Assembly (NCBI RefSeq): GCF_014199435.1
Contig: NZ_JACIJP010000001.1
Coordinates: 682,001 to 746,000, forward strand
Origin: Sphingobium subterraneum
GTDB lineage: Bacteria; Pseudomonadota; Alphaproteobacteria; Sphingomonadales; Sphingomonadaceae
DNA length: 64,000 nt
Reading direction: 5' to 3'
Shown here: positions 10,122 to 33,244 of the stretch, piece by piece
Numbering within the stretch: the stretch's first letter is position 1
Layout of the letters: the number at the start of each line of letters is the position of its first letter
The notes under the pieces: generated by a model
Databases searched by the model: none
What the model saw: the letters and a program-made list of their open reading frames with translations, nothing else
What the model was told of the DNA's origin: nothing
Position numbers and translations under genes: made by a program

Positions 10122-10168
10122 TCGCTTGCCGCGAAGCTGCGCGGATCTTCCATCCTTCTCCACCAGAC

Positions 10169-10183
10169 ATAGGCTTTACCTAT
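10169..10183. promoter_or_regulatory. LysR-type box, ATAGG-N5-CCTAT
   Basis: ATAGG (10169-10173), CTTTA, CCTAT (10179-10183) is a perfect inverted repeat with the T-N11-A pattern. The flanking TTTACCTATATATTCG is nearly identical to the box at 17857, which has TTTACCTATATATGCG. It lies about 180 bases upstream of the six-gene operon starting at 10365. Confidence 0.78.
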
Positions 10184-10328
10184 ATATTCGTGAAGCCTTT
10201 GCCCGATAGCTCATCCCGCCCGAAACCGCCATCAGTGCCCCAGACGCAAATGCGTTCCAGTGCCGCTGGGTTGTGCGTCCAAATGTTAATCAGAGAAATG
10301 AGGGTGGTTTGAAGCCAGTGATATTCCC

Positions 10329-16509: not shown

Positions 16510-16707
16510 ACTCTCTCCATATCTGTGCCCCGCTCCGGATAATCCCGAATGCGGCTCTGAATCCAGCGACCGTACTTCTCGGTTGAACAGGACATGTCTC
16601 GCTCATATCCCAAGCGCCAATCGGCGCATTTTCATAGGCCCAAGGTGAACTGTTAAAACCCTCCGCAGCGTCCGAAAAGCGTCTCCGGTCGCCTGCCTAC
16701 ACTTGTC

Positions 16708-16722
16708 ATAGGCCCCACCTAT
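16708..16722. promoter_or_regulatory. LysR-type box, ATAGG-N5-CCTAT
   Basis: ATAGG (16708-16712), CCCCA, CCTAT (16718-16722) is a perfect core repeat. It lies 20 bases past the stop of the LysR gene and about 200 bases upstream of the SnoaL-like gene start at 16509, which is the only gene it could serve by position. Confidence 0.75.
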
Positions 16723-16741
16723 CGCAGGACGACGCAGATGT

Positions 16742-17719
16742 TTACTCCGCCTTGGGAAGGCGCGCTTCGAGATGGTGGCGATCGATCATTTCCCCGATGA
16801 TGGTGGTAAGCTCCTGCTCCACGACCTGGCTTGCGCGCGTCACGGATCGCGATCGTTTCCTGATCAGATAAGCGGTTCGACGGATCGTCGGCTTGACGAT
16901 TTCGACCAGCGCAAGGGTTCCGTTAGCAACCTCGTTGATCACGGCCGCGTGCGGCAAAATCGTATAAGCGCTTGCGCGGTCCGCCATCGCGATAATCTGG
17001 GGAAGAGAATCAATCTCTGTGACGACATCCAGACGGACGCCGTTGCTTTTAGCAAATCGTTCAATCACTTCGCGGGCACCATGCGGGCGGCTGGGCAGTA
17101 CGAGCGGCAGTGACTGCACGTCCGCCAGAGTGATGGGCTTTTCGGCCCTGCCATTCGGCAAGATTGCACCATCCCAATTGTCGGGCGCTGTCACCAGAAA
17201 AAGATCTTCGCTCAAAATCGGCTGGACAGAGACCTGCGAAGCATCCGGCACTTCATAAACGCAACCCAGCTCGATCCGCTCGTTAATGATCCATTCCATG
17301 ATATAACCGGACATCGCCTCGGCTATGTGCAGGCGAACCCGCGGAAATTCGGCCTGGATGGTTTCCGCCAACGGAACGCTGAGCAACAAACCCATCGACG
17401 GCGGGAAGCCAATCGAGACCGGCCCCCTCGCCTCGCCCCCGAGGTGGCGGACATCTTCGACCGCGACTTCGACACCATGCAGGATCTCACGCGCGTGTTG
17501 GGCCAAAGCGACGCCGGCCTCGGTAAGGTGGACACCGCGCGCCCCGCGTATAATGAGCTGGGTATCCAGCTTCCTTTCCAGGCGCGAGATATGTTCTGAC
17601 AGGGACGGTTGGGCCAGTCCCAGCACGGCGGCGGCGGACGAAATCGAGCCCTGCTCTGCTATCGCCACAAAATAGTGGAGCTGCCTTAGATCGACAGGCG
17701 GAACACGACCCTCATCCAT
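16742..17719 (-). CDS. LysR-family transcriptional regulator
   Basis: This 325-residue LysR regulator has the N-terminal winged helix ('LRQLHYFVAIAEQGSISSAAAVLGLAQPSLSEHISRLERKL') and the periplasmic-binding-like effector domain ('GPVSIGFPPSMGLLLSVPLAETIQAEFPRVRLHIAEAMSG'). It resembles the NAC/CbbR-like group that has a short pre-helix extension. It is divergent from the acyl-CoA operon at 17991, and ATAGG-N5-CCTAT boxes lie on both its sides (16708 and 17857). That makes it my first choice as regulator of the box-bearing genes. Its inducer is not predictable. Confidence 0.93.
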   Translation of the reverse strand: MDEGRVPPVDLRQLHYFVAIAEQGSISSAAAVLGLAQPSLSEHISRLERKLDTQLIIRGARGVHLTEAGVALAQHAREILHGVEVAVEDVRHLGGEARGPVSIGFPPSMGLLLSVPLAETIQAEFPRVRLHIAEAMSGYIMEWIINERIELGCVYEVPDASQVSVQPILSEDLFLVTAPDNWDGAILPNGRAEKPITLADVQSLPLVLPSRPHGAREVIERFAKSNGVRLDVVTEIDSLPQIIAMADRASAYTILPHAAVINEVANGTLALVEIVKPTIRRTAYLIRKRSRSVTRASQVVEQELTTIIGEMIDRHHLEARLPKAE

Positions 17720-17856
17720 CGGATAAGCCTATATCCTTAGCGTAAATGTTGCACCCACTTTTTTCTCGACAAAACGTCGGATGAAGGGATGATATGCCCT
17801 CTGATCCTTTGATCGTCAGCCATTTTGACGAAAAACCCGCCCTTTCAGATCAAGGT

Positions 17857-17871
17857 ATAGGTTTTACCTAT
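17857..17871. promoter_or_regulatory. LysR-type box, ATAGG-N5-CCTAT
   Basis: ATAGG (17857-17861), TTTTA, CCTAT (17867-17871) lies in the divergent intergenic region between the LysR gene and the acyl-CoA operon. It is 137 bases from the LysR start and about 120 bases from the CaiB start. That is the classic position for a LysR autoregulatory and activation site. The 3' flank matches the box at 10169. Confidence 0.8.
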
Positions 17872-17990
17872 ATATGCGTTAGGACATGGACATCCCCATT
17901 TGCGCGTCCGTCAGCGTTCCGGCATCGCTCAGTACGCAGGCGCCCTTCGGAAGAGCGCCTTTGGTTCGAACGACGGAAAGACAGGCGGCA

Positions 17991-19202
17991 ATGAAGGGCG
18001 TTCTGAGCGGATACAAGGTCCTCGACTTTGGACGTTACATCTCCGGCCCATTTTGCGCGGCGCTTTTAGCCGATATGGGGGCCAATGTGATCCGCGTGGA
18101 GCCCGTCGAGGGGAGCGACGATCGCTACGTCATGCCGATCGGAGAGGACGAAAGTGGCGGCGGCGCGGTTCATTATCATGTCAATCGCGGCAAACGCTCA
18201 ATCGCCATCGACACGTCGACCTCCGAAGGCCGACAGGTCGTGGAACGCCTGATTGCCAGCGCCGATGTCGTGGTCGCCAACTTACCTCCCAAGGCGCTGA
18301 CCAAGCTCGGTCTCGATTACGCCACGCTTTGCGCAATTCGCCCCGACATCATCCTGACGACCGTGAACGCCTATGGCCTGAACGGCCCGTATCGGGACGA
18401 GATCGGCTTTGACTGCACCGGGCAGGCATTGAGCGGAGCGATGGCGCTGACGGGAACACCGGAACAGCCTTACAGGGCGGCGGTCTCCTATGTCGATTAC
18501 TCTACCGCTATCTCTGCCGCGCTCGGTACGGTGTCCGCCTTGCTGAAGCGCGAACGCACGGGCCAGGGCGAGCATGTCCATTGCTCCCTTCTCAAGACAG
18601 CGCTGACGATTACAAATTCGATGCTGATCGAGGAAGCTTCGGGCGCAAGGAGCCGGGTCGCGACCGGTAATCGCAGCCCCATTTCTGGGCCATCGGACCT
18701 CTTCCGAACCCGCGATGGCTGGATCATGATCCAGGTTATCGGAAACATGATGTTCCGTCGTTGGGCGCAGATGGTCGATCAGCCGGAGCTGGTTGACGAC
18801 CCGCGTTTTTCGGATGACCAATCTCGCGGCGACAATGGTAAAGCGCTGAGTGCGATCACGGCAGCCTGGGCGGCGGACAAAACCCTCGAAGCCTGTATGG
18901 CGCGAGCGCAGGCCCACCGTCTGCCCGTCACGCCGATGCTGTCGCCCGGGCAAGCCTTTACAGCGCCTGCCATAGCGCAGGGGGAGATGCTGGAGTATGT
19001 CTCGACCCGAGACAATCAACAGATCCCCATCGTCACGACCCTGTGCGATTTCGCGGTGAATGGACATGATACCCCCGCGCCTGCCCCGACGCTTGGGGCG
19101 CATACGGCGGCGATCTTGAAGGAGGCGGGATTCGACGCCGGAACCATTGATCGCCTGGCCGCGACGGGTACGATTTCCGAAACTTTCATGACGAGTGATT
19201 AA
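17991..19202 (+). CDS. CaiB/BaiF (class III) CoA-transferase
   Basis: The 403-residue class III CoA-transferase has its catalytic Asp at D141 in 'GFDCTGQALSGAMALTG'. It also has 'YKVLDFGRYISGPFCAALLADMGANVIRVEP', 'HYHVNRGKRSIAID' and 'TLGAHTAAILKEAGF'. I chose the ATG at 17991, with AGGCGG seven bases upstream and the family start right after it. An upstream in-frame ATG at 17886 would add 35 unmatched residues. It is the first gene of a four-gene operon (CoA-transferase, AMP-forming ligase, SDR, crotonase). Its sequence group differs from the CaiB proteins at 8075 and 31296. Confidence 0.9.
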   Translation: MKGVLSGYKVLDFGRYISGPFCAALLADMGANVIRVEPVEGSDDRYVMPIGEDESGGGAVHYHVNRGKRSIAIDTSTSEGRQVVERLIASADVVVANLPPKALTKLGLDYATLCAIRPDIILTTVNAYGLNGPYRDEIGFDCTGQALSGAMALTGTPEQPYRAAVSYVDYSTAISAALGTVSALLKRERTGQGEHVHCSLLKTALTITNSMLIEEASGARSRVATGNRSPISGPSDLFRTRDGWIMIQVIGNMMFRRWAQMVDQPELVDDPRFSDDQSRGDNGKALSAITAAWAADKTLEACMARAQAHRLPVTPMLSPGQAFTAPAIAQGEMLEYVSTRDNQQIPIVTTLCDFAVNGHDTPAPAPTLGAHTAAILKEAGFDAGTIDRLAATGTISETFMTSD

Positions 19203-19214
19203 GGCCGTTAGCGC

Positions 19215-21158
19215 ATGACCGCATCCGAAAAGACCGATCTATGGACTCCTACCGCCGATGACGTCGCCCATGCGCACGTGACGGCGCTTGCACGCACCCT
19301 GCAACTGCCAGACTACGACGCTCTGCTCCAATATTCGGTCGAGAATCCTGCGGGCTATTGGCAAAAGACACTCGCATTTCTGGATCTTGAATGGTCGAAG
19401 AAGCCGGATTCTTACGGCGAGTTCGCCCGTGGCCGCGAATTTCCGTCATGGTTCCCGGGCGGAGAATTGAACTGGGTCGACAGTATCGTGAAGTTCGGTG
19501 ACGATCCGGCGTCGTCCGATCGCACTGCTATCATTGCCGAGCGTGAGGACGGGACGGTCACGAAAATCAGTTTTGCCGAATTGTCTCGTCAGGTTCGTTG
19601 CTTCGCCGCCGGGCTGGCCGAACAGGGCGTAAAACGCGGCGACCGCATTGGCCTGTTCACCGAAAACGGCATTGAAGCCACCGTCACATTGCTGGCGATC
19701 GCGTATCTGGGCGCGATCGTGGTCCCTCTCTTTAGCGGATTTGGAACCGACGCGATTGTTTCCCGCCTTGGCTCCTGCGGCGCCCGCGGACTTGTCGGGT
19801 CGACCGGGTTCGACCGGCGGGGGCAGCGCGTCAACGCGATGGCTGCGATTACGGATGCCCTACGACAGCTCCCCTTGATTGACTTGCTCATCCTGAAGGG
19901 CGGTGCGGGCGAGGCAATCCCAAAGCCGGGCATTGCATGGCAGGCGGTCCTCGATAACGACGCCCCCGCCCTCCCCTCCGCCCGCATGACGCCCGACGAT
20001 CCGTTCATGGTGATCTATACGTCCGGCACCACCGGCAAGCCAAAGGGAGCCGTCCACACCCACGGCGGTTTCCCGCTGAAAATCGCGCACGACGCCGCCG
20101 TCCATTTCGATGTCGGCGCAGGCGACGTTTTCTGCTGGCCTGCCGATATGGGATGGATCGCCGGGACGCTCGTGCTTTCCGTCGCGCTGCTGCGCGGAGC
20201 GACGCTCGTCTGCTATGACGGGGCGCCGGATTTCCCCGATTGGTCGCGCCTTTCCAGGATCGTGGAGCGACACAAGATTACCCATCTGGGGTCGGCGCCG
20301 ACGCTGATCCGTGGACTTGCGGCCAACATGCCATTGTCCGTGAGCGGCGACACATCGACCATCGAATTGCTCATCACAGCCGGGGAAGGCATTGATCCTG
20401 ATCACTTCCTCTGGTTCCATCGCCATTTCGGGCACGGCCGCGCGCCGGTCATCAATTATACCGGCGGCACCGAGGTGTCCGGGGCGTTGCTGTCCAGCGT
20501 CGTCGTGCGCCCCATTCCCCCGGCATCCTTCAACACGACGTCACCGGGCGTGGAAGTCGATGTGGTGGATGCAAACGGGCAACCCGTCCTCGACCAGATC
20601 GGTGAACTTGCCATCCGTGCACCGTTCGTCGGAATGACCCATTCCTTCTGGCAGGACGACGAGCGCTATCTCGACAGCTATTGGCGCACGATTCCTGGCC
20701 TGTGGATCCACGGCGACCTTGCCATGCGCACGAGCCGCGGCGAATTCTTCATGCTGGGCCGCTCCGACGACACGATCAAGGTTGCCGGTAAACGGCTCGG
20801 CCCGGCCGAAGTCGAGGAGGTTATCCTGGAGCTCCCCAGTGTGAGTGAAGCCGCCGCCATCGGGGTGGAAGACGCCGTCAAGGGTCAGAAGCTGGTGGTT
20901 TTCGTGATTACAGCATCCGCTTATGATGGCGACGCGGCGGCTCTCGCCACAGCGATCCGCAAGCAGGTGGACGACAATCTGGGCAAGCCGTTCCGCCCCA
21001 GCGCCGTGCATGTCGTGAGGCAGCTGCCCAAGACGCGCAGTTCCAAAGTGATGCGCCGCCTGATACGCAGCATCTATTGCGACCAGCCCCTGGGGGATCT
21101 TTCGGCCCTGGATAATCCGTCCGCGCTGGACGAAATCCGCCGCATGATTCCGGCCTGA
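19215..21158 (+). CDS. AMP-forming acyl-CoA synthetase, acetyl/acetoacetyl-CoA synthetase-like
   Basis: This 647-residue adenylate-forming enzyme makes an acyl-CoA from acid, ATP and CoA. It has the acetyl-CoA synthetase N-terminal cap ('YSVENPAGYWQKTLAFLDLEWSK'), the ATP loop 'VIYTSGTTGKPKGAVHTHGG', 'NYTGGTEVSG', 'WIHGDLAMRTSRGEFFMLGRSDD' and 'IKVAGKRLGPAEVEE'. The catalytic Lys sits near the C-terminus in 'LPKTRSSKVMRR', where most relatives have RSGK. Length and cap fit the acetyl/propionyl/acetoacetyl group rather than long-chain ligases. It lies 12 bases after the CaiB gene, so two activation enzymes are co-transcribed. Confidence 0.9.
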   Translation: MTASEKTDLWTPTADDVAHAHVTALARTLQLPDYDALLQYSVENPAGYWQKTLAFLDLEWSKKPDSYGEFARGREFPSWFPGGELNWVDSIVKFGDDPASSDRTAIIAEREDGTVTKISFAELSRQVRCFAAGLAEQGVKRGDRIGLFTENGIEATVTLLAIAYLGAIVVPLFSGFGTDAIVSRLGSCGARGLVGSTGFDRRGQRVNAMAAITDALRQLPLIDLLILKGGAGEAIPKPGIAWQAVLDNDAPALPSARMTPDDPFMVIYTSGTTGKPKGAVHTHGGFPLKIAHDAAVHFDVGAGDVFCWPADMGWIAGTLVLSVALLRGATLVCYDGAPDFPDWSRLSRIVERHKITHLGSAPTLIRGLAANMPLSVSGDTSTIELLITAGEGIDPDHFLWFHRHFGHGRAPVINYTGGTEVSGALLSSVVVRPIPPASFNTTSPGVEVDVVDANGQPVLDQIGELAIRAPFVGMTHSFWQDDERYLDSYWRTIPGLWIHGDLAMRTSRGEFFMLGRSDDTIKVAGKRLGPAEVEEVILELPSVSEAAAIGVEDAVKGQKLVVFVITASAYDGDAAALATAIRKQVDDNLGKPFRPSAVHVVRQLPKTRSSKVMRRLIRSIYCDQPLGDLSALDNPSALDEIRRMIPA

Positions 21159-21186
21159 GCCATCGAGACGACCGAAGGGATTAGAA

Positions 21187-21969
21187 ATGGATCTGGGAAT
21201 TGCCGGCCAGAAAGTCCTCATTACCGGCGCTTCACAGGGCATCGGAGCCGGTCTGGCGCAGGTTTTCGCGGAGGAAGGCTGTGCCGTCTATCTGGTCGCC
21301 CGCTCGGCGGATAAGCTGGACGCGGTCGCATCAGAACTGCGATCGGCCCTCGGCGCGCAGGTGGAAACGCTGGCGATCGACCTGACCGCTCCGGACGCCG
21401 TGGGCCGGGTCGTCGCGTTCGCAGGAACGCCGGACATCCTCGTCAACAATGCAGGCGCGATTCCGGGTGGAAATCTCTGGCATGTCGACGAAGCGCAATG
21501 GCGCGCAGGCTGGGAGCTGAAGGTCTTCGGCTATATCAACATGACCCGCGCTTTCTATCCTCTGATGCAGGAACGGGGATCCGGCGTTATCCTCAACAAC
21601 ATCGGCAACGGCGGTGAGAATTTCGATTTTGATTATGTGTGCGGCACCACCGGCAACGCCGCGCTGATGGCATTCACCCGCGCCATCGGCGGACGCAGCA
21701 TGGATCACGGCATTCGGGTTCTGGGCGTCAACCCCGGACCGGTGGCGACCGACCGCATCTTCAAGGTCCTGCGTACGCGTGCGATCGAACGGTTCGGCAC
21801 AGAGGATGCCGCAGACGAGCTGACCGCAGGCTATCCGGCGGGTAGAATCGCCAGCGTACGGGAAACGGCCGATATGTTCGCGTTTCTCGCCTCGCCTCGG
21901 TCGGCCTATACGTCCGGCACCATTATAACGATCGATGGCGGCATAACGTCGCGCCGCGCAATTGGTTGA
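21187..21969 (+). CDS. SDR-fold protein with altered catalytic residues
   Basis: The 260-residue protein has the short-chain dehydrogenase fold. The nucleotide motif 'LITGASQGIGAGLA' and 'DILVNNAG' are intact, and Tyr150 is kept. In the active site, however, it reads 'NNIGNGGENFDFDYVCGTTGNAAL'. The Lys expected four residues after Tyr is Thr154, and no Ser stands where the catalytic Ser should be. It may have a changed reaction or a binding role. AAGGGA lies upstream of the ATG at 21187. It sits between the acyl-CoA synthetase and the crotonase in one operon. Confidence 0.85.
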   Translation: MDLGIAGQKVLITGASQGIGAGLAQVFAEEGCAVYLVARSADKLDAVASELRSALGAQVETLAIDLTAPDAVGRVVAFAGTPDILVNNAGAIPGGNLWHVDEAQWRAGWELKVFGYINMTRAFYPLMQERGSGVILNNIGNGGENFDFDYVCGTTGNAALMAFTRAIGGRSMDHGIRVLGVNPGPVATDRIFKVLRTRAIERFGTEDAADELTAGYPAGRIASVRETADMFAFLASPRSAYTSGTIITIDGGITSRRAIG

Positions 21970-21979
21970 AGGACATCCC

Positions 21980-22789
21980 ATGTCACACGGTTATGACGGT
22001 TACAAATGGCTGAAGTTCGATCGCCCCGGCGACGGCGTGTTGCGCATCACGCTCGACCGGCCGGAGCGGCTCAACGCGCTTGATCATGACGGTCATCGCG
22101 AGCTGGCCTATATCTGGAACGTTGTCCACCAGGACGACGCGGTTCGCGCCGTGATCCTGCGCGGCGCTGGCAGAGCCTTTTCCGCAGGCGGTGATTTTTC
22201 CGTGGTTGAGGATCTTATTGCGGACCATGAGGCCCGCGTGCGCATGTTCAAGGAAGCGCGCGATCTCGTCTATAATATCATCAACTGTTCCAAGCCGATC
22301 GTTTCCGCCATCCATGGCGCGGCCGTGGGTGCGGGCCTTGTGGCCGCGCTGCTTGCGGACATACCGGTTGCGACCAAGGGCGCGAAAATCGTCGATGGTC
22401 ACACGAAACTCGGCGTAGCGGCAGGCGATCATGCAGCGATCATCTGGCCACTATTGTGCGGGATGGCGAAGGCCAAATATCATCTCATGCTGTGCGAACC
22501 GATGACTGGGGAAATGGCCGAGCAAATGGGCTTGGTCGCGTTGGCGGTCGAAGACGATGAACTCGAAACGAAGACGTTGGAAATCGCTGACAAGCTGGCG
22601 GGCGGAGCACAAAGCGCGATCCGGTTCACCAAATATGCGCTCAACAACTGGTTGCGTATGGCGGGGCCCTCGTTCGACGCGTCGCTTGCGCTCGAAATGT
22701 TGGGCTTTAGTGGTGCAGAGGCCAAGGAAGGTCTCGCCGCCTATCAGGAAAAGCGCCCGGCGGAATTTCCCCCTCATTCGGCTTTTTGA
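21980..22789 (+). CDS. Enoyl-CoA hydratase/isomerase (crotonase family)
   Basis: The 269-residue crotonase-fold protein acts on a CoA thioester. The oxyanion-hole segments are 'ILRGAGRAFSAGGDFSVVED' and 'SAIHGAAVGAGLVAALLADI', followed by 'HTKLGVAAGDHAAIIWPLLCGMAKAKYHLML'. I start it at the ATG at 21980 with AAGGA before it; a TTG at 21962 would overlap the SDR stop. The position of the usual second acidic residue is taken by 'GDHA', as in several non-hydratase crotonases, so hydration, isomerisation or C-C bond hydrolysis are all open. It is the last gene of the operon. Confidence 0.9.
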   Translation: MSHGYDGYKWLKFDRPGDGVLRITLDRPERLNALDHDGHRELAYIWNVVHQDDAVRAVILRGAGRAFSAGGDFSVVEDLIADHEARVRMFKEARDLVYNIINCSKPIVSAIHGAAVGAGLVAALLADIPVATKGAKIVDGHTKLGVAAGDHAAIIWPLLCGMAKAKYHLMLCEPMTGEMAEQMGLVALAVEDDELETKTLEIADKLAGGAQSAIRFTKYALNNWLRMAGPSFDASLALEMLGFSGAEAKEGLAAYQEKRPAEFPPHSAF

Positions 22790-22905: not shown

Positions 22906-23922
22906 TCACTTCTTCTTGGGTGTGGAGGTCATCGAGAGGCCAGACCCTTGCTCGCGAATGATCTTCCAGCCAGCAGGGGTTCGGTGCCAAACAACCATGC
23001 TGAGAATTCGGCCATTCATCATCCGGTCACCCATATCGAGCGTAATATTGTAGTAGACGGGTGCCGACGCGAGATTCCCAGAAATAACGATGTCTTCCAC
23101 AGGTTCGATTCGGTTGCTGAACACTATGCCCTTCAGGGCTTCATCCCAGATGGCGCCATATTCGGCCGGTGATCGGGCCACACGCTTCTTCTGATCGAAA
23201 TCATCGAAAAGATACACACCGCTGGCATCCCAATCGTAGAATTTGCCCAGACGCTCACGGAAATTAAACGCCGGATCGGTGGGAAGATGGCGCCAGCCAT
23301 ATTCCAGCCATTCGGTTGCAAGGCGCCGGATTTCCTGCTTGTCGGCTTCATCGCTAGCGCCAGGCACAGCACCTGGAGCGCCCCGATATTCGCCACCCGC
23401 AGTTTCGGCACTGGCTGGCACTTGCGCCTTCACTGCGTCAAAAGCGGGCAAATCATAATACATGGTAAGACGCGTGACCAAACCACCGCTCATCTGGAAA
23501 ATCCAGGCATAGCTATTCGAATAGGGCTGCTTGTCACGCCGGACAGCGTTGGCGTCAAAATGCACCACGACGGTATCGCCTTCAGCGAATATACCCCGAA
23601 CGATGGGCAATGGCGGCTCAGAAAACCGCGAAAGGAACGGCTTGGCTACCTGCGTGAGAAATTGCTCACGGCCGTTCCACGTTCCCGCCGACGGGCCCGT
23701 TCCCGGAATGACCAGCACAGCATTGGGCGCGAGCAGGTTGAAAACTTCACCATGGCCCTTTGTCCACTTGTCGAAGGCATCAGCGATGATTTTCCGGTTC
23801 GACATGGTTTCAGCCTTGGTAACTGCAGCGGTGGCGGATACGGGAGCCAGAGGCACCGAAACGGCAAAAGCGACGGCGAAAGCTATGGAGCGTGCGCATG
23901 TCCGCGTTGTTTTGAGCCTCAT
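22906..23922 (-). CDS. Exported tandem SnoaL/NTF2-like protein
   Basis: This 338-residue protein has a signal peptide ('MRLKTTRTCARS' then a hydrophobic core ending near APVSATA) and two SnoaL/NTF2-like domains. Domain 1 covers about residues 40-160, with 'IADAFDKWTKGHGEVFNLLAPNAVLVIPG' and 'VTRLTMYYDLPAFD'. Domain 2 covers about 195-330, with 'GKFYDWDASGVYLFDDFD' and 'SMVVWHRTPAGWKIIREQGS'. I prefer the ATG at 23922, since GAGGAGAG lies in the right place for it; the ATG at 23937 would sit before that site. It is divergent from the PQQ dehydrogenase with a LysR-type box between them. Periplasmic partner or ligand binder is a guess. Confidence 0.78.
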   Translation of the reverse strand: MRLKTTRTCARSIAFAVAFAVSVPLAPVSATAAVTKAETMSNRKIIADAFDKWTKGHGEVFNLLAPNAVLVIPGTGPSAGTWNGREQFLTQVAKPFLSRFSEPPLPIVRGIFAEGDTVVVHFDANAVRRDKQPYSNSYAWIFQMSGGLVTRLTMYYDLPAFDAVKAQVPASAETAGGEYRGAPGAVPGASDEADKQEIRRLATEWLEYGWRHLPTDPAFNFRERLGKFYDWDASGVYLFDDFDQKKRVARSPAEYGAIWDEALKGIVFSNRIEPVEDIVISGNLASAPVYYNITLDMGDRMMNGRILSMVVWHRTPAGWKIIREQGSGLSMTSTPKKK

Positions 23923-24000
23923 GAATTCTCTCCTCATTCAAGATTATGCCTTCGTCATGCCACCCGAGCCATTGGCAGAAAAGGGAAAAGGGCCCGGCGG

Positions 24001-24019
24001 CCATAGGACGAAACTATGG
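24001..24019. promoter_or_regulatory. LysR-type box in divergent promoter region
   Basis: CCATAGG (24001-24007), ACGAA, ACTATGG (24013-24019) keeps the 5-bp spacer and 6 of 7 arm pairs. It lies between the divergent starts at 23922 and 24114, about 80 and 95 bases away. It could control both the exported SnoaL-like protein and the PQQ dehydrogenase. Confidence 0.65.
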
Positions 24020-24113
24020 CAAGGCATTGGATGTCCTATGCTGCTTCGATCGCATGTAGTCAGCTTGGCGGGACGCATTAGGCTCGCGAGGAAACGGGCA
24101 GCCAGGAGAGGAT

Positions 24114-26237
24114 ATGCTGACAATGAATCGAGGTCTAAGACCAGAGCCGTGTGGCGTTCGTCTTGCGATAGCGAATGTACTGCCATTATTGGCCTTGGCG
24201 GCTTGTGGCGGTCCCCGTTCGGACGGAGGCGACTGGACAAGCTATGGCCGATCGGCGGACGAAAGTCGCTTTAGCCCCGGCAATCAGATCACGAGCGACA
24301 ATGTCGATCGCTTGGGTCTGTCATGGGCCTTTACCTTGGACGAGCCGGGCGGTCTGGAAGCGACACCCCTGGCCATCGACGGCATCCTCTATTTTACGGC
24401 GGCAAATGGTACCGTGTACGCCGCCGATGTCCTGAGTAGGAAAATCCTCTGGAAGTACGATCCTCAGTCGTGGAAGGTTTCTCCGCGTATGATACGCGGT
24501 TTTGAGCCGGTCAATCGCGGCTTGGCCTATTGGCAGGGAAAGCTGTTTCTCGGTGCGTTCGATGGCCGCTTGATCGCAATCGACGCGCGCAATGGCCGCG
24601 AAATCTGGCAAACTTCCACGCTGGATGGCGATGGCCCACATTCCCGCAAGACGATCACCGGAGCGCCGCGAGCCTTTAACGGCAAGGTGGTCATCGGTCA
24701 GGGCGGGGCCGACTGGGGCACGCGGGGCTATCTCACGGCTTATGACGCGAACAGCGGGAAAAAGTTGTGGCGTTTCTTTACCGTGCCTGGCCGCCCGGGG
24801 TCTGATGAAAACGACCCGGCCATGAAGATGGCCGCCAAGAGTTGGTCGGGCGAATGGTGGCGCTGGGGCGGGGGCGGCACGCCATGGAACGCAATTACTT
24901 ATGATCCGGAACTGAACCGACTGTATATTGGTACCGGCAACGCGTCGGTCTATGATCCGCGACTGCGCAGCCCGGCGGGCGGCGACAATCTATTTCTCGC
25001 CTCCATCGTTGCGGTCGATGTGGATACCGGCCGGTACATCTGGCATTACCAGGTCAATCCCCGTGAAGCATGGGACTATAAGGCTACGACTGACATGACG
25101 CTTGCCGAGGCTGAGATCGGCGGCAAGCGGCGCAAGATTTTGATGCAGGCGCCCACCAACGGCTTCTTTTATGTTCTTGATCGCGAGACCGGCCGTGTCA
25201 TTTCTGCAGAGAAACTCGGAAAAGTCACATGGGCGGACAAAATCGATTTGAAGACGGGGCGGCCTGTGGAGCGCCCGGGGATACGCTATGAATCCGGCCC
25301 CGTGACCATCTGGCCAGGCACCATCGGCGCCCATAACTGGCAGGCGATGGCATACAGCCCCCAGACCAAGCTAGTTTATATTCCCTATATGCAGCTGCCT
25401 ACGACATTCACATCCACCCCGGAGGACGCACAAGCCCTTGCCGATCTTACACTCGACAAGACGAAAATGCGGTTTGGTATAGGGGCAACCTTCCGGTCCG
25501 CCGTGATCGACAAGGAAGATGGCAAAGGCGCGTTGCTGGCCTGGGACCCAATCGGACAAAAGGCCGCGTGGCGCGTGCCGCGCAAATATTTGTGGAACGG
25601 CGGAATTCTGACCACGGGGGGTAACCTCGTGTTCCAGGGCACGGCGGACGGCAATTTTGAGGCGTTCTCGGCCGATCAGGGTAAGCTGCTCTGGTCATTC
25701 AAAGCCGGGAACGGAATAATTGCGCCGCCCATCAGTTTTGCAGCCCGGGGGAAGCAGTATATCGCGGTGCTGGCGGGATATGGCGGGGCTTCGGCGGCGG
25801 GCAGCAAATTGTTCGATACCGGGTGGCGCTACGGTATTCATCCCAGTCGGCTGCTCGTGTTTTCGCTGGATGGAAAAGAGAAACTGCCGCAAACCCAACC
25901 GCCGTCCGTTGCCGTGACCATCGCCGACGATCCTAAGATCGTCATCGATCAGGCTGCGGCCAAACGCGGGGCAAAAATCTACAGCCAAACCTGCCGCATT
26001 TGTCATGGTGCGGGAGCGGCCGCCACCGGCCCGACGGCTCCGGACCTCCGTGCCTCGGGAGCAACGCTGGACTATGCTGTATTCCGGGATGTCCTGAATG
26101 GTGCACTTGTGGAACGACAGATGCCCCGCTTCGATGATCTTTCCGACGACGAAATGCGATCTATTTTCATGTATATTCGCAGCGAGGCGCGGCATCCCGG
26201 GAGCACCGGTGAGGTAAAGCAGAGCAACGGCTCTTGA
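24114..26237 (+). CDS. PQQ-dependent dehydrogenase with C-terminal cytochrome c, lipoprotein
   Basis: The 707-residue quinohemoprotein should oxidise an alcohol (or aldehyde) in the periplasm. An eight-bladed PQQ propeller is seen in repeats such as 'GTVYAADVLSRKILWKYDP' and 'GRLIAIDARNGREIWQTS'. 'GGGGTPWNAITYDPELNRLYIGTGN' and the catalytic 'AWDYKATTDM' follow the quinohemoprotein alcohol dehydrogenase pattern. The heme c site CRICH is at residues 627-631. The N-terminus ends in a lipobox (LALAAC, C31), so it is probably membrane-anchored. The vicinal Cys-Cys of most relatives is missing: the equivalent place reads 'RMIRGFEPVNRG'. AGGAGAGG precedes the ATG. Confidence 0.92.
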   Translation: MLTMNRGLRPEPCGVRLAIANVLPLLALAACGGPRSDGGDWTSYGRSADESRFSPGNQITSDNVDRLGLSWAFTLDEPGGLEATPLAIDGILYFTAANGTVYAADVLSRKILWKYDPQSWKVSPRMIRGFEPVNRGLAYWQGKLFLGAFDGRLIAIDARNGREIWQTSTLDGDGPHSRKTITGAPRAFNGKVVIGQGGADWGTRGYLTAYDANSGKKLWRFFTVPGRPGSDENDPAMKMAAKSWSGEWWRWGGGGTPWNAITYDPELNRLYIGTGNASVYDPRLRSPAGGDNLFLASIVAVDVDTGRYIWHYQVNPREAWDYKATTDMTLAEAEIGGKRRKILMQAPTNGFFYVLDRETGRVISAEKLGKVTWADKIDLKTGRPVERPGIRYESGPVTIWPGTIGAHNWQAMAYSPQTKLVYIPYMQLPTTFTSTPEDAQALADLTLDKTKMRFGIGATFRSAVIDKEDGKGALLAWDPIGQKAAWRVPRKYLWNGGILTTGGNLVFQGTADGNFEAFSADQGKLLWSFKAGNGIIAPPISFAARGKQYIAVLAGYGGASAAGSKLFDTGWRYGIHPSRLLVFSLDGKEKLPQTQPPSVAVTIADDPKIVIDQAAAKRGAKIYSQTCRICHGAGAAATGPTAPDLRASGATLDYAVFRDVLNGALVERQMPRFDDLSDDEMRSIFMYIRSEARHPGSTGEVKQSNGS

Positions 26238-26319: not shown

Positions 26320-28629
26320 TTAGAACCGGTAACCGACAGTGACGCCGTAACTGACAGGCTCACCCGCGTAGCGCCCGACGGTCTCGATCACCAACGTTGG
26401 TGCCGACCAGTAATAGGAGTTCGTCACATTGCGGCCAAAGACGCCGAAGTTCCATTTGTCCTCTTCGTCGTGGATCGACGCACGCAGATCAAGTGTCTGG
26501 TAAGAGTCGATCGCGGCAGCCGGCAGCTCGCCCAAAGCACCGTAGGAGAAGGACTGGTGGCGCAGCGACGCGCCGATCTTCATGCGCCAGTTGTCCGATA
26601 CGGCGAAGTCATAGTCAACTTGCGCGGTTCCTGTGAGCTTTGGCGAAAATGGCAGTACCTGCCCCTTCATCTGGACCCTGGCGCCAACGAAATTGAAGTT
26701 CACAAAGCTGTCCGTAATCTTCGTGTCGATATAAGTACCATCTACGCTGAGCGTAAGGCCCTCCACCGGCCGGACTGTCAATTGGGCCTCCGCACCGTAA
26801 ATGCGCGATTTGGGGACATTGACGAGGGCGCTGGCGGCAACGTTGGCCAAGCGCGGATCGAATGTGCGACCACGCACCTGCTTGTTGGTATAATCGTTAT
26901 AAAATGCCGCTGTGTTGAACTGGACCTTGCCACCCAAGAGTGTGAACTTGCCGCCCAGCTCGTAAGCCAGCACGTCTTCCTGAACGGCCGGAACGAGCGA
27001 CGCAAAAGTCGTTGAAAGGACAGCGCCGAACGCGCCGCTCTTGTAGCCGTGGCTGACGCTGGCATAGAGAAGGGTATTGCGATCGACCTTCCAGTTGGCA
27101 GCCGCCCGCCATGACAGGTTATCCTCCTTGAGTACGGGATTATAATAGCCAAGCGTCACATTATCAGGAAGAACGGTAACGCATCCACCGACCGCAACCG
27201 GTGCAGGAAGACGGGCCGTAAAATAATTTGCCGTGCTCTGATCTTCAGCCGTGGTGCACCCGCGCAATTCACGCCGGTAATTGGTATAGCGGGCTCCACC
27301 CTGCAGCGTCAGGCCATCACCGATCTTATATTCGAGATTCCCGTAAACGGACTCCGAGCTTCCGGTCTGGAAATTGCGGCCCGCTGCGTGCGTATATCCT
27401 GTTTTGCCCAGGATACCGTCAGTAAAAATTCCGTCCTGGCGCTCGTTGATCTTGTCGTCGGTGAGGTTGGCCCCCACGATCCAGCGGAGCGCGTCCATCT
27501 GTCCTGACAGCCGCAGTTCCTGGAAAAAGGAGCGCAGATATCCGTCAATAAGGATGGTATTAGCAGTGAAGGGCGTACCGTCGGTATCAACGGCCGATTT
27601 GGTTGTATATCGGTTGTAGGACGTAATGCTCTTCAGCTGGACGTCCGGCGTCAGATCGACATTTACGGTAAGGGCCGCCTGGAAATTGTGGTTGTCTTTC
27701 TTGAACGGGTAGTTGGCGTCCCAATCGGCCGAACGATTGTGGCGAGCGGCCTGGGGGTAATTATAGAGCGCGGGATTCAGGGTTCTCAGCGCGTTGTTTC
27801 CGCCCGCTGCCGGTGTCGCGCCCAGATATTGGACGGCCTGCGTATCGGACCGATCGATGCCCGCGTTGACATTGAGCCGCAGCGAAACCGTTTCGGCGGG
27901 TTTCCAGTCGATCAGCAGCCGACCGGACACGATGTCCTTGTCGCCCAATTTGTCGCCCCGGCTGTAGCTGCGCTGCCACGCTCCACCATGATCCGTCTGC
28001 ACCGAAAGTCGCGCGGACAAGGTGTCGCTCAACGGGCCTGAGACAAACGCCCTCGTGGTGACTTGATTGAAGCGGGCATACCCCAAATCTATGCCCGCCG
28101 AGAGCTGATCGGTCGGGGCGTTGGGAATGATGTTGATCGCGCCCGCCGTCGAGTTGATTCCGTATAAAATCCCTTGAGGCCCCTTGATCGTCTCAACCCG
28201 CTGCGGATCGAGCATGGAAAAGGACGTCAGCGATCCGTAGGGAAGCGGCACCTCGTCAACATAGACGGTCACTGCTGGCGATGCAGCCAAGCCGTAATCG
28301 TAAAAGCCGATACCGCGCATGGTATAAACCGGCACGCCATACGCGCTTTTTGCATAGGTGAAGCCTGGAACTGCCTTGATCAGATCATCGGGCGTGCTGA
28401 TACCCAGGGACTTGAGTTGCTCGCCCGAGGCCGCCGTTATGGTAAGCCCGACGTCGTTGATCCGTTCGCTCCGCTTCTGTGCGGTGACGACGATGTCGGC
28501 GATTTCCGTTGTGGCCTCGGGGGCCGCCGCAGAGCCAGCTCCCGCTGCCCCCTCTTGAGCATGCGCGGCACTTGCTGACCACGTCATCGCCGACGTCGCA
28601 AGCAGAACCAGCTTAAGTTGATTACGCAT
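26320..28629 (-). CDS. TonB-dependent outer-membrane receptor
   Basis: This 769-residue outer-membrane receptor imports a substrate using TonB energy. It has a signal peptide ('MRNQLKLVLLATSAM...AAHAQ'), a TonB-box/plug region 'IADIVVTAQKRSERINDVGLTITA', a plug with 'VPVYTMRGIGFYDYG' and 'INSTAGAINIIPNAPTD', and a beta-barrel ending in a terminal Phe ('GVTVGYRF'). GGGGAGG lies just upstream of the ATG at 28629; a longer in-frame extension to 28707 has no signal peptide. Receptors like this in sphingomonads often take up aromatic or terpenoid compounds. The LysR-type box at 28772 lies upstream, placing uptake in the same regulon as the catabolic genes. Confidence 0.93.
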   Translation of the reverse strand: MRNQLKLVLLATSAMTWSASAAHAQEGAAGAGSAAAPEATTEIADIVVTAQKRSERINDVGLTITAASGEQLKSLGISTPDDLIKAVPGFTYAKSAYGVPVYTMRGIGFYDYGLAASPAVTVYVDEVPLPYGSLTSFSMLDPQRVETIKGPQGILYGINSTAGAINIIPNAPTDQLSAGIDLGYARFNQVTTRAFVSGPLSDTLSARLSVQTDHGGAWQRSYSRGDKLGDKDIVSGRLLIDWKPAETVSLRLNVNAGIDRSDTQAVQYLGATPAAGGNNALRTLNPALYNYPQAARHNRSADWDANYPFKKDNHNFQAALTVNVDLTPDVQLKSITSYNRYTTKSAVDTDGTPFTANTILIDGYLRSFFQELRLSGQMDALRWIVGANLTDDKINERQDGIFTDGILGKTGYTHAAGRNFQTGSSESVYGNLEYKIGDGLTLQGGARYTNYRRELRGCTTAEDQSTANYFTARLPAPVAVGGCVTVLPDNVTLGYYNPVLKEDNLSWRAAANWKVDRNTLLYASVSHGYKSGAFGAVLSTTFASLVPAVQEDVLAYELGGKFTLLGGKVQFNTAAFYNDYTNKQVRGRTFDPRLANVAASALVNVPKSRIYGAEAQLTVRPVEGLTLSVDGTYIDTKITDSFVNFNFVGARVQMKGQVLPFSPKLTGTAQVDYDFAVSDNWRMKIGASLRHQSFSYGALGELPAAAIDSYQTLDLRASIHDEEDKWNFGVFGRNVTNSYYWSAPTLVIETVGRYAGEPVSYGVTVGYRF

Positions 28630-29031
28630 AAACCTCCCCTTATTATCCTGATAAATCGATGGATGGTTGCCGATCCGACCGTGATGGGTCTGTCGGTTGC
28701 GGCCCACCCGTTCCGTAAATCACCATCCTCGCGCCATTTGCAAATGCAGCTCTTGGCCTCCTAATCTGGGCATAGGATCGCCCTATGCCGCGGACGCGAC
28801 GGAGCCCTATGACAGCGGGCAGGCCCAATTTCTGTCTGAATTCCCGCTAACAGCGCAGCCCTGGGGTGATCGAAGTCATGAGCGTATCACCATGGATTCA
28901 GCTCGTCGGCTACCTTGGCGATGAATGCGTCCTGCTGCGAAAGTCATTTGTCCGGAAATGTTGAAATGCAGGCCTCGCATCTCCCCAGCCTTTCCGTATC
29001 CTGACGTTCCGGCCTCTGTTAGGAGATAGAC
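28630..29031. other. Divergent intergenic region (TonB receptor / LysR)
   Basis: This 402-base region between two divergent genes contains the LysR-type box at 28769-28789. The remaining sequence has no convincing gene. Confidence 0.6.
28769..28789. promoter_or_regulatory. LysR-type box, extended 8-bp arms
   Basis: GGCATAGG (28769-28776), ATCGC, CCTATGCC (28782-28789) is the longest perfect copy of the ATAGG-N5-CCTAT motif in the window. It lies 140 bases upstream of the TonB receptor start and about 240 bases upstream of the LysR start at 29032. Confidence 0.8.
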
Positions 29032-30123: not shown

Positions 30124-31296
30124 ATGGCACTCAGTTCCCTCCAAGGCACCGACTATCCCGAAATCCGCGAGGAGATCGTCAAACTCTGCGAGCAGTTTCC
30201 GGATGAATATTGGCGCAAGCTCGACCGCGAAATGGCGTATCCGGCGGAATTCGTGAAGGCGCTGAGCGAGGCGGGCTATCTGGCCGCGCTCATCCCCGAG
30301 GAATTCGGAGGGTCCGGGCTGCCGCTCTCGGCGGCCGCCGCAATTCTGGAGGAAGTGCAGCGCGCCGGTTGCAATGGCTCCGCCTGCCACGCGCAGATGT
30401 ACATCATGGGGGCGCTGCTGCGCCACGGAAACCACGACCAAAAGGCCAAATATCTCCCCAAGATCGCCAGTGGCGAACTGCGCCTGCAGGCGTTCGGCGT
30501 CACCGAGCCGACCAGCGGCACCGACACCGGGGCGCTCAAGACCACTGCCGTGCGGCAGGGCGACAAATATATCGTCAACGGGCAAAAAATCTGGACCAGC
30601 CGAGCCGAATATTCGGACCTGATGCTGCTTCTCGCACGCACTACCCCGCGCGATCAGGTGCAGCGCGGGATCGACGGGCTGTCGATCTTCATCCTCGACA
30701 TGAACGCGGCGCAGGCCGCCGGGGGCCTGACCATCCGGCCGATCCGCACGATGATGAACCATTCGACGACCGAAGTTTTCTTCGACAATGTCGAGGTACC
30801 GGCGGAAAATCTGATCGGCGAGGAAGGCAAGGGTTTCCGCTATGTCCTCTCCGGCATGAACGCGGAACGGATACTCATCGCCGCCGAGTGCATTGGCGAT
30901 GCGAAATGGTTCATCGAGCGCTCGCGCAACTACGCCAATGAGCGTCAGCTTTTCGGTCGCGCGATCGGCCAGAACCAGGGCGTGCAGTTCCCTATCGCCA
31001 AGGCCTATGCGCAGATGCGCGCCGCGGAGCTGATGGTTCACAAGGCCGCGGAAATGTTCGAGGCGGGCGAAGCAATCGGGGAACAGGCGAACATCGCCAA
31101 GATGCTGGCGGCGGATTCATCCTGGGCGGCGGCGGAAGCGGCCGTGCAGACGCATGGCGGCTTTGGCTTCGCCGAGGAATATGATGTGGAACGCAAATTC
31201 CGCGAAACCCGCCTGTATCAGGTGGCGCCCATCTCCACCAACATGATCCTGAGCTATATTTCCGAACATGTGCTTGGCATGCCGAGATCATATTGA
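30124..31296 (+). CDS. Acyl-CoA dehydrogenase (itaconate-type operon)
   Basis: The 390-residue acyl-CoA dehydrogenase has 'FGVTEPTSGTDTGALKTTAV' and 'NGQKIWTSRAEYSDLMLLLART', then 'YANERQLFGRAIGQNQGVQFPIAKAYAQM' and 'AAVQTHGGFGFAEEYDVERKFRETRLYQVAPIS'. I chose the ATG at 30124, since the family match starts there; a GTG at 30061 has a poorly spaced ribosome site. Its stop overlaps the next ATG (TGATG). An acyl-CoA dehydrogenase of this kind also sits in the itaconate gene cluster of P. aeruginosa (PA0879), where its role is less clear than that of its neighbours. Confidence 0.92.
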   Translation: MALSSLQGTDYPEIREEIVKLCEQFPDEYWRKLDREMAYPAEFVKALSEAGYLAALIPEEFGGSGLPLSAAAAILEEVQRAGCNGSACHAQMYIMGALLRHGNHDQKAKYLPKIASGELRLQAFGVTEPTSGTDTGALKTTAVRQGDKYIVNGQKIWTSRAEYSDLMLLLARTTPRDQVQRGIDGLSIFILDMNAAQAAGGLTIRPIRTMMNHSTTEVFFDNVEVPAENLIGEEGKGFRYVLSGMNAERILIAAECIGDAKWFIERSRNYANERQLFGRAIGQNQGVQFPIAKAYAQMRAAELMVHKAAEMFEAGEAIGEQANIAKMLAADSSWAAAEAAVQTHGGFGFAEEYDVERKFRETRLYQVAPISTNMILSYISEHVLGMPRSY

Positions 31297-32399
31297 TGGC
31301 CGCCCGGCTTCCCCTCGAAGGTCTGACGGTCGTTGCGGTCGAGCAGGCCGTCGCGGCACCGTTTTGCACATCGCGGCTGGCGGATGCGGGAGCCCATGTC
31401 ATCAAGGTCGAACGCGCGGAAGGCGATCTCGCGCGCGGTTATGACGAGGTAGTGAATGGGCTGAGCAGTTATTTTGTCTGGCTCAATCGCGGCAAGGAAT
31501 CCGTTGTCGTCGACATTGCCTCGCCCGACGGAAGGGCGGAACTGTCCCGGTTGATCGCAAGCGCCGATATTGTCGTGCAAAACCTGAAGCCGGGGGCCTT
31601 TGACCGCTTGGGTTTCGCGCCTGAAGATCTGCGCAAGCAATATCCCGCACTCATCATCTGTTCGATCAGTGGCTATGGCGACACCGGCCCGATGGCGGAT
31701 CGGAAGGCCTATGATCTCCTCGTCCAGGCGGAATCGGGGCTTTCGTCTGTAACCGGGGGGCCTGAGGCGCCTGCCCGCGTTGGCATCTCCATTGTCGACA
31801 TCGCCACCGGCTCGACCGCTCATGCCGCCATCCTTGAGGCAGTGATCGGCCGCGGTGCCACCGGGCAGGGCGCGGATATCCGCATTTCGATGTTCGATGT
31901 TATGGCGGATTGGCTGGCCGTCCCGCTGCTCCACCACAAAGGGGGGAACTCTCCCAGGCGGATCGGTTTGTCGCATCCGTCCATCTCGCCTTACGGCGTA
32001 TTCGAGACGAAGGACGGCAGACAGATGCTCATTTCGATCCAGAGCGACCGCGAATGGCGGACATTCGCCGACATCTTCCTTGGTGACGCGACATATGGAG
32101 CAGACAGACGCTTTGCGACCAATGTCGATCGTGTTCGTAACCGCAGGGAGACCGACGGAATCGTCGCCACTGCTTTTGCGGATATGACAAAGGCGCAAGC
32201 CGAGGAGCGCCTGCGCGCCGCGGATGCTGCCTTTGCCGGGGTGAACGACATGGCGGCGCTGGCGCAGCATCCGCATCTGCGGCGTATCACGGTGGACACG
32301 CCCGTCGGCCCGGTCGCCATTCCCGCGCCCGCCCCCATCGTCAAGGGTGAGGCGCGTCGCTACGGCGCAGTGCCCGCGATAGGAGGAAGCAGAGCATGA
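31296..32399 (+). CDS. CaiB-type CoA-transferase, probable itaconate/mesaconate CoA-transferase
   Basis: The 367-residue class III CoA-transferase has its catalytic Asp at D140 in 'ADRKAYDLLVQAESGLSSVTG'. The start ATG at 31296 shares a base with the stop of the acyl-CoA dehydrogenase. Its neighbours, a mesaconyl/itaconyl-CoA hydratase-like hot-dog protein and a CitE-type lyase, are the exact partners of succinyl-CoA:itaconate (Ict) or mesaconate (Mct) CoA-transferase. I therefore infer a C5-dicarboxylate substrate with succinyl-CoA as donor. It is paralogous to the protein at 8075. It overlaps the next gene by 4 bases. Confidence 0.85.
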   Translation: MAARLPLEGLTVVAVEQAVAAPFCTSRLADAGAHVIKVERAEGDLARGYDEVVNGLSSYFVWLNRGKESVVVDIASPDGRAELSRLIASADIVVQNLKPGAFDRLGFAPEDLRKQYPALIICSISGYGDTGPMADRKAYDLLVQAESGLSSVTGGPEAPARVGISIVDIATGSTAHAAILEAVIGRGATGQGADIRISMFDVMADWLAVPLLHHKGGNSPRRIGLSHPSISPYGVFETKDGRQMLISIQSDREWRTFADIFLGDATYGADRRFATNVDRVRNRRETDGIVATAFADMTKAQAEERLRAADAAFAGVNDMAALAQHPHLRRITVDTPVGPVAIPAPAPIVKGEARRYGAVPAIGGSRA

Positions 32400-33244
32400 G
32401 TGAACTTCTGAACCTGGCTGAGTTGCAGGGCTGGATCGGTGCAGAGGAAACGGCGCAGGACGTCCTGACCGCGGCCCTTGCCGAACGCTTTCACGCTACA
32501 CTTTCGCTTGATGGCGAAGTCGCAAAACTGGGGGATGTGGTTCCCCGACTCATCCATTTCTGTTTGTGTCAGCCTGCCGCTCCCATGAACGCTCTGGGGG
32601 AAGACGGTCATCCGGCGCGTGGTGGTTTCCTCCCGCCCGTGCCACTACCCCGCCGCATGTGGGCAGGCAGCGATATCACTTTCCACGGCGATTTGCGGGT
32701 GGGGGACGCCGTACAGCGCCTGTCCCGCATTGCCGATGTGATCGTGAAGGAAGGAAAGTCCGGCACGTTGTGCTTTGTCACGGTGGATCATTCCTTCACC
32801 GTCAACGGTCAACTTCGCATCGAAGATCGTCAAAGCATTGTCTACAGGGCGCTGCAGAGCGCTCCTGCGGCAGTCTCACCGACGGCTGCACCCGTCGGTG
32901 AGACTGTTTCCGGCGTGGATCCGTCTCCCACGTTGCTGTTCCGCTATTCGGCGCTGACGTTCAATGGGCACCGCATTCATTATGACGCGCCCTATGCAAC
33001 CGGTGTGGAGGGCTATCCGGGCCTTGTGGTTCACGGGCCGTTGCAGGCAACGTTGTTGCTCCATCTGGCCGCGCGGGTCGGCAGGCGGCCGCCTGATGCA
33101 TTCCGGTTTCGCAGTCTCTCGACCTTGTATGATCACGAAGAGATGTTCCTCAATGCAGGTACTTTGCAGAACGGAACTTTACCCTTGTGGACGGCGCGAG
33201 CGGGTGGACCGGTCGCAATGCAGGCAGAAGCGTCTTGGCAATGA
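32396..33244 (+). CDS. Hot-dog hydratase, mesaconyl/itaconyl-CoA hydratase-like
   Basis: The 282-residue double hot-dog protein belongs to the FAS1-like dehydratase/mesaconyl-C4-CoA hydratase group. Seen are the N-terminal 'LQGWIGAEETAQDVLTAALAERFHATLSLDG', the aromatic 'PRRMWAGSDITFHGDLRVGD', and the C-terminal catalytic region 'FNGHRIHYDAPYATGVEGYPGLVVHGPLQATLLL'. It should hydrate itaconyl- or mesaconyl-CoA to (S)-citramalyl-CoA. GGAGG precedes the ATG, which overlaps the CoA-transferase stop by 4 bases. The linker between the two hot-dog halves is encoded by a perfect 15-bp hairpin (32871-32906). Confidence 0.83.
   Translation: MSELLNLAELQGWIGAEETAQDVLTAALAERFHATLSLDGEVAKLGDVVPRLIHFCLCQPAAPMNALGEDGHPARGGFLPPVPLPRRMWAGSDITFHGDLRVGDAVQRLSRIADVIVKEGKSGTLCFVTVDHSFTVNGQLRIEDRQSIVYRALQSAPAAVSPTAAPVGETVSGVDPSPTLLFRYSALTFNGHRIHYDAPYATGVEGYPGLVVHGPLQATLLLHLAARVGRRPPDAFRFRSLSTLYDHEEMFLNAGTLQNGTLPLWTARAGGPVAMQAEASWQ
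32871..32906. repeat. Perfect 15-bp inverted repeat inside the hydratase gene
   Basis: CAGTCTCACCGACGG (32871-32885) and CCGTCGGTGAGACTG (32892-32906) pair perfectly around a 6-base loop. The repeat lies within the coding frame and encodes the low-complexity linker between the two hot-dog halves. Confidence 0.85.

Follow-up and report, generated by a model that had tools for sequence, protein, structure and literature searches.

A stretch of 64,000 nucleotides from Sphingobium subterraneum (contig NZ_JACIJP010000001.1, positions 682,001 to 746,000; hereafter the window, numbered from its first letter) encodes two divergent genes of interest. One specifies a probably exported protein that carries two NTF2-like domains in a single chain, and the other a pyrroloquinoline quinone (PQQ) alcohol dehydrogenase. 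The list of open reading frames (ORFs) places the former at 22906-23937 on the minus strand and the latter at 24114-26237 on the plus strand. The features of the locus are the following:

22906 to 23922, minus strand: probably exported tandem NTF2-like protein, 338 amino acids from the likely ATG at 23922 (343 from the ATG at 23937)
23824 to 23922, minus strand: probable signal peptide MRLKTTRTCARSIAFAVAFAVSVPLAPVSATAA, read by eye, exact cleavage site uncertain
23383 to 23817, minus strand: N half, a SnoaL_2-type NTF2-like domain (residues 41-185 of the 343-residue ORF; Pfam)
22909 to 23382, minus strand: C half, a DUF4440/SnoaL_3-type NTF2-like domain (residues 186-343; Pfam DUF4440 above cut-off)
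24002 to 24018, unstranded: LysR-type palindrome CATAG-N7-CTATG, CATAGGACGAAACTATG, in the shared control region
24114 to 26237, plus strand: PQQ and cytochrome c alcohol dehydrogenase of the type II quinohemoprotein class (profiles), a probable lipoprotein with C31 in LAAC

The tandem protein probably starts at the second ATG of its ORF, because a Shine-Dalgarno-like sequence (GAGGAGAG) sits within the first five codons, just ahead of that ATG. Its hydrophobic N-terminus, recognized by eye, recurs in the ortholog of a second species of the same genus (genome G825), and export through a signal peptide is probable. The peptide at the first ATG, MRREF, resembles a twin-arginine translocation (Tat) motif; the position of the Shine-Dalgarno sequence and the G825 ortholog speak against Tat export and for a Sec signal that begins at the second ATG.

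Both halves are assigned by profile to the NTF2-like superfamily, each score exceeding its curated Pfam cut-off: SnoaL_2 scores 36.8 bits against 27 (residues 66-156) and DUF4440 scores 29.8 bits against 25.2 (best stretch residues 275-326). No NCBIfam model matches the protein at E ≤1. An alignment of six sequences shows that the invariant residues of the N half include D121, Y139, N141, Y143 and D162. The AlphaFold model, built on an alignment of two sequences, is poor overall (mean predicted local distance difference test score, pLDDT, 50.5). With Foldseek, the low-confidence N-half model (pLDDT 51-86 per ten-residue block across the model's first 130 residues) matches structures of NTF2, of limonene epoxide hydrolase and of ketosteroid-isomerase-like proteins (92 matches at E ≤0.001, best E 1.3e-5), but the root-mean-square deviation is mostly 3-8 Å. 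The C-half model has a mean pLDDT of 47.6 and no confident fold. An internal duplication is ruled out by the lack of similarity between the halves (blastp best E 3.7; profile comparison probability 0.25%). Between the S. subterraneum and G825 copies, the nonsynonymous divergence (dN) of the two halves is 0.28 and 0.26, which indicates comparable purifying constraint; synonymous divergence (dS) is about 2, so that dN/dS ratios are rough because dS is near saturation.

The dehydrogenase matches the methanol/ethanol-family PQQ dehydrogenase model of NCBIfam (537 bits against a cut-off of 480) and the cytochrome c domain of Pfam. It combines a PQQ propeller with a C-terminal cytochrome c domain bearing a CxxCH heme motif (CRICH, at residue 627), which is the architecture of type II enzymes, and among solved structures the sequences nearest to it are those of type II quinohemoprotein alcohol dehydrogenases (best E 7.2e-203). 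Structures 1kv9, 1yiq and 1kb0 of this type match it over nearly its full length. Unlike them, the S. subterraneum enzyme has a lipobox (LAAC, read from the sequence; LSSC in the 76% identical G825 ortholog) and, like most of the relatives compared, lacks a vicinal Cys-Cys. This pair of cysteines near the PQQ is a mark of quinohemoprotein alcohol dehydrogenases; at positions 24471-24533 the enzyme reads RGFEPVNR where 1kv9 reads SCCDAVNR. The absence is ruled out as a peculiarity of this enzyme, since Cys-Cys is present in only two (L040 and L069) of the 33 distinct places compared, its own included (loci L038-L070 and L081).

The gap between the two genes measures 176 bp and contains the palindrome listed above. 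LysR operator palindromes are of the T-N11-A type, and palindromes of this type are repeated in promoter regions of the window and kept in the related species, as in a LysR regulon. Allowing one mismatch at most, the window contains six sites where 0.74 would be expected, a number that none of 100 shuffles reached. Five of the six are intergenic, and the sixth (28077), which lies in coding sequence, is probably a chance match. Across the 3.75-Mb genome, CATAGG-N5-CCTATG with up to two mismatches gives 130 matches per strand compared with 51 for the backward control, and of the 15 listed places with at most one mismatch, five fall within 21 kb (window 7807-28787). The boxes and the genes around them are as follows:

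7807 to 7823, unstranded: box flanked by the genes for an aldehyde dehydrogenase (6066-7472) and CaiB (7955-9214)
10168 to 10184, unstranded: box upstream of an acyl-coenzyme A (CoA) dehydrogenase pair; G825 counterpart at L096:3304
16159 to 16509, minus strand: stand-alone protein of the SnoaL_2 type in which no signal peptide was seen
16707 to 16723, unstranded: box with one mismatch upstream of the stand-alone SnoaL gene (pattern scan)
16742 to 17719, minus strand: LysR-type regulator, 90% identical over 195 aligned residues in G825, where the locus stops within the gene
17856 to 17872, unstranded: box TATAGG-N5-CCTATA between the LysR and CoA-transferase genes, outside the six sites but fitting ATAGG-N5-CCTAT; G825 counterpart at L081:908
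17886 to 22789, plus strand: genes for a CaiB-type CoA-transferase, an acyl-CoA ligase, a short-chain dehydrogenase/reductase (SDR) and an enoyl-CoA hydratase (77, 85, 91 and 91% identical in G825)
26320 to 28707, minus strand: TonB-dependent receptor, 76% identical in G825
28771 to 28787, unstranded: box upstream of the TonB-dependent receptor

In G825, boxes occur at four of the six corresponding places (10168, 16707, 17856 and 24002). The box in the gap between its tandem and dehydrogenase genes is at L081:11139, and the counterpart of the 16707 box (L096:10454) lies between CoA-transferase and LysR genes, with no SnoaL gene adjoining. Further G825 sites are found at L081:19834 and, in coding sequence, at L096:3223. 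The LysR-type regulator at 16742 is the best candidate for the protein that reads these boxes.

G825 carries a full tandem gene (64% identical; 63% by blastp) divergent from the orthologous dehydrogenase gene, and this tandem gene is followed, after 27 bp, by a gene for a relative (44%) of the stand-alone SnoaL protein. Placement of the tandem protein, the dehydrogenase and the stand-alone SnoaL protein in one regulon is well supported. The original prediction had described an exported tandem SnoaL-like protein divergent from a PQQ dehydrogenase lipoprotein, a control region shared by the two genes and a stand-alone SnoaL-like gene behind the same kind of box. The ORFs and the Pfam matches bear out the gene pair, with export and lipobox read from the sequence; the palindrome in both gaps agrees with the shared control region; and the site at 16707 and the gene order of G825 agree with the place given to the stand-alone gene. 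The prediction's further suggestion, that the exported protein may bind or isomerize the substrate beside the dehydrogenase, is at the level of a proposal.

The surrounding catabolic island is largely kept in G825. CaiB, MaoC, acyl-CoA dehydrogenase, SDR, thiolase, CoA-transferase and LysR proteins are 70-93% identical, while the HTD-like dehydratase is less alike (44%) and the G825 stretch compared contains nothing close to a second LysR of the window (29032). Among 150 relatives, 91 genomes match the dehydrogenase at E ≤1e-100, and the best match outside the S. subterraneum genome is that of G825 (76%; the next is 58%). The island proteins scanned, which represent part of the genes in the window, are of CoA-ester and beta-oxidation types, and these types indicate a predicted pathway of CoA-dependent beta-oxidation of an acid. 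Two additional gene groups in the window deserve mention. Two adjacent, unlike acyl-CoA dehydrogenases (10365-12589) are reminiscent of the heteromeric acyl-CoA dehydrogenases for steroid side chains described in an excerpt of PMC8399759. CaiB, an FAS1-like dehydratase and a CitE-like lyase are encoded in a row at 31293-34032, an arrangement that we take to resemble itaconate-type CoA pathways.

The full tandem is rare. We searched family, class, genus and relative genome sets, which overlap and are each a sample of a larger group. Only S. subterraneum itself carries the full tandem among 397 family genomes (64 have some match at E ≤0.001, the others being partial) and among 385 class genomes (four match at E ≤1e-8), G825 alone carries it among 20 chosen genomes (eight have some match), and the two species carry it among 392 relatives (13 match at E ≤1e-15). 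The C half is found in one of the 397 family genomes and strongly in two of 94 genus genomes, two more being partial (E 3.4e-4 and 9.6e-4). A pattern scan of genome contigs, which required near-exact short peptides, returned one N-half relative, from Stutzerimonas. Among plasmids, 88 records match the tandem protein, none over 80% of its length, and these are single-half relatives only. Neither half has a relative in viral_contigs, and a phage collection queried with the G825 C half only gave no match.

A second arrangement in G825 bears on the origin of the tandem. Within the same island and 3 kb from its tandem gene, two adjacent single genes (L081:5836-6976) encode a C-half relative (36%) followed by an N-half relative (36-41%), each with a hydrophobic N-terminus. 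The N-like protein exceeds the SnoaL_2 cut-off and the C-like protein falls just below that of SnoaL_3 (21.9 against 22). The genes overlap if read from their first start codons; a later start would abolish the overlap. Because G825 has these adjacent single-gene relatives of each half, the tandem gives the impression of a fusion between members of two distinct NTF2 families, not of a duplication. Relatives of the C half are found in G825 and on Paracoccus plasmid pKON1. A search of the open-access literature on another plasmid, pJE1, gave nothing useful.

Outside the tandem, N-half relatives are single-domain proteins, mostly of an exported type. By a hydrophobicity heuristic, 18 of the 20 distinct close relatives (E <1e-20) have an export-like N-terminus, compared with 3 of 20 distinct weaker ones; the exceptions among the close relatives are L008 and a paralog in the S. 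subterraneum genome (C1:4552). The SnoaL_2 proteins of this type from Stutzerimonas RM2, G824 and others are 36-45% identical to the N half (tblastn) and differ from the tandem in having one domain and no PQQ dehydrogenase inside the fetched flanks. Elsewhere in the S. subterraneum genome, a cluster at G000:C1:1-7000 (L083) has boxes at 455 and 6476 and encodes a SnoaL_2 protein (42% to the N half), a LysR regulator, a flavin adenine dinucleotide (FAD) oxidoreductase, a metallo-beta-lactamase-fold protein and, where the contig ends, a fragment of a TonB receptor.

Characterized NTF2-like proteins provide points of comparison. Profile searches match the N half to structures 3fgy, 1tuh and IdmH (6hnl), with E values of 1.6e-8, 3.9e-5 and 4.2e-4; these are single-domain chains of 135-156 residues, whereas the tandem protein joins two unlike families behind a probable signal peptide. 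TerC of terfestatin biosynthesis (6d34, 6wf4) is a weak profile match (E 0.0074) and a fold match (6wf4, E 4.5e-4). TerC works with a second NTF2-like protein, TerB, although its system is biosynthetic, unlike the catabolic setting here; the open-access literature searched yielded nothing on the TerB/TerC pairing. According to excerpts of the respective papers, sphingomonads use the NTF2-superfamily enzymes LdpA and PcfL to remove formaldehyde (PMC12997858, PMC11323797) and Hsh2 to remove water (PMC12175502, PMC8399759); Hsh3 catalyzes a similar reaction but is not an NTF2-like protein (PMC12175502). LdpA, PcfL and Hsh2 share with the tandem protein the superfamily and a setting in the breakdown of bulky compounds (PMC12997858, PMC11323797, PMC12175502); the excerpts describe no tandem or export for them, and the likeness noted is at the level of the superfamily. 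Strain SYK-6 has 62 NTF2-superfamily homologs according to an excerpt of PMC12997858, and an excerpt of PMC12314914 mentions a putative SnoaL-like tautomerase and, separately, PQQ dehydrogenases. Judged by titles and the starts of abstracts, the open-access literature searched offers no description of such an exported tandem protein. What is new is the fused, probably exported form with two unlike halves; the superfamily itself is very large and known.

The tandem protein and the dehydrogenase probably cooperate in breaking down a compound, because the pair and its control site recur in G825, which also has the split domain genes. We tentatively propose, at somewhat short of an even chance, that an exported single-chain pair of NTF2-like domains, within a LysR-controlled catabolic regulon that includes a PQQ alcohol dehydrogenase, performs a cofactor-free step in the periplasm. 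Reactions of the LdpA, PcfL and Hsh2 types need no cofactor. In the proposed sequence, a bulky, hydrophobic alcohol would enter the periplasm through the TonB-dependent receptor, and the lipoprotein dehydrogenase would oxidize it to a carbonyl product. The tandem protein, whose two NTF2 domains would form an internal heterodimer and which may contact the dehydrogenase, would then carry out an acid-base step on this product, either double-bond isomerization or water elimination, after which the product would be imported, CoA-activated and beta-oxidized. A role as cofactor-free isomerase or dehydratase is favored by analogy with the sphingomonad precedents, namely formaldehyde removal by LdpA and PcfL and water removal by Hsh2. 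The enzymatic role, the step order, the substrate class, the internal heterodimer and the LysR protein at 16742 as box reader are what we infer; the feature and its regulon are solid, and the biochemical role is a proposal. A bolder version, which is doubtful, has the fused heterodimer act as periplasmic catalyst in a relay with the dehydrogenase, so that oxidation and isomerization or dehydration are both finished outside the cytoplasm, with the split pair of G825 as the two-chain form.

The main rival, a possible if unlikely one, is a non-enzymatic periplasmic binder or shuttle. Its two pockets would hold a substrate or product of hydrophobic nature and hand it on between the dehydrogenase and the TonB receptor. 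The probable export, the predicted pocket fold, the neighboring receptor and lipoprotein enzyme, the lack of an assigned catalytic residue set and the engineered digoxigenin binders (4j9a, 5bvb) among the fold matches agree with it, whereas the invariant polar residues of the N half and the enzymatic nature of LdpA, PcfL and Hsh2, as the excerpts describe these characterized sphingomonad catabolic proteins, argue against it. Relatives on plasmids bring in another explanation, that of a general stress or detoxification protein that stands beside the PQQ gene without joint function: N-half relatives occur in LysR, aldo/keto reductase and NTF2 cassettes of Skermanella and Shinella plasmids, and C-half relatives adjoin LysR genes on Paracoccus and Devosia plasmids. 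The pairing and the box are kept in one syntenic catabolic island of two species, with tandem and dehydrogenase 63-76% identical, and this makes the explanation improbable. We consider it very improbable that the tandem protein is a periplasmic deformylase or lyase, of the LdpA/PcfL type, with an aromatic dimer as its substrate. NTF2-superfamily deformylases of sphingomonads, LdpA and PcfL, provide a precedent (excerpt of PMC12997858), but the CoA-ester and beta-oxidation types of the scanned proteins speak against it, and the word 'periplasm' does not occur in the main text of PMC12997858 or PMC11323797.

Several observations weigh against the proposed cofactor-free periplasmic step beside the dehydrogenase, the first being that a pure binding role fits the tandem protein equally well. 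The residues of the N half are candidates taken from an alignment, and the models of both halves are as weak as described above. The tandem protein is also less constrained than the dehydrogenase between the two species (dN 0.31 against 0.18). The pattern used finds no G825 box at the places equivalent to 28771 and 7807, the latter region having a different gene order and lying close to a contig end. Two SnoaL_2 genes in one island are not very surprising because SnoaL_2 is common in the genome (nine matches, seven above cut-off). No third genome with the full tandem turned up in the family, class, relative or plasmid sets searched.

A general NTF2-PQQ partnership is not supported. The original prediction had called for a test of co-occurrence of the two genes across genomes; the pair is kept in G825, the only other genome with the tandem, so that the association is conserved, though on the basis of two genomes. 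By contrast, not one of the 47 loci fetched for N-half relatives contains a PQQ dehydrogenase. These loci represent 41 distinct places, most of them with 1.5-kb flanks, and include the G825 split pair, whose island has its PQQ gene about 4 kb further on. In the reverse direction, 30 PQQ loci (L041-L070, about 1.5-kb flanks where the contig allows) were searched with both halves and the stand-alone SnoaL protein (tblastn, E ≤0.01), and the halves match only at the S. subterraneum and G825 loci and, weakly, at L055 (E 1e-4). Three plasmid loci gave no match. This search is insensitive, as it overlooked a SnoaL_2-like ORF directly downstream of the PQQ dehydrogenase gene in genome G847, whose 22.5 bits fall short of the SnoaL_2 cut-off (27). 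In genome G829, a SnoaL_2 gene (59.3 bits, above the cut-off) lies one gene from a PQQ dehydrogenase gene. No export signal was seen in either of these two proteins.

NTF2-superfamily proteins are numerous and mostly uncharacterized in such bacteria. The fused and split forms, the conserved operator, the PQQ dehydrogenase and the syntenic pathway described here identify a specific partner for one of them and a regulon that can be tested. The relay, if true, would mean that NTF2 chemistry also takes place in the periplasm, next to a quinoprotein.

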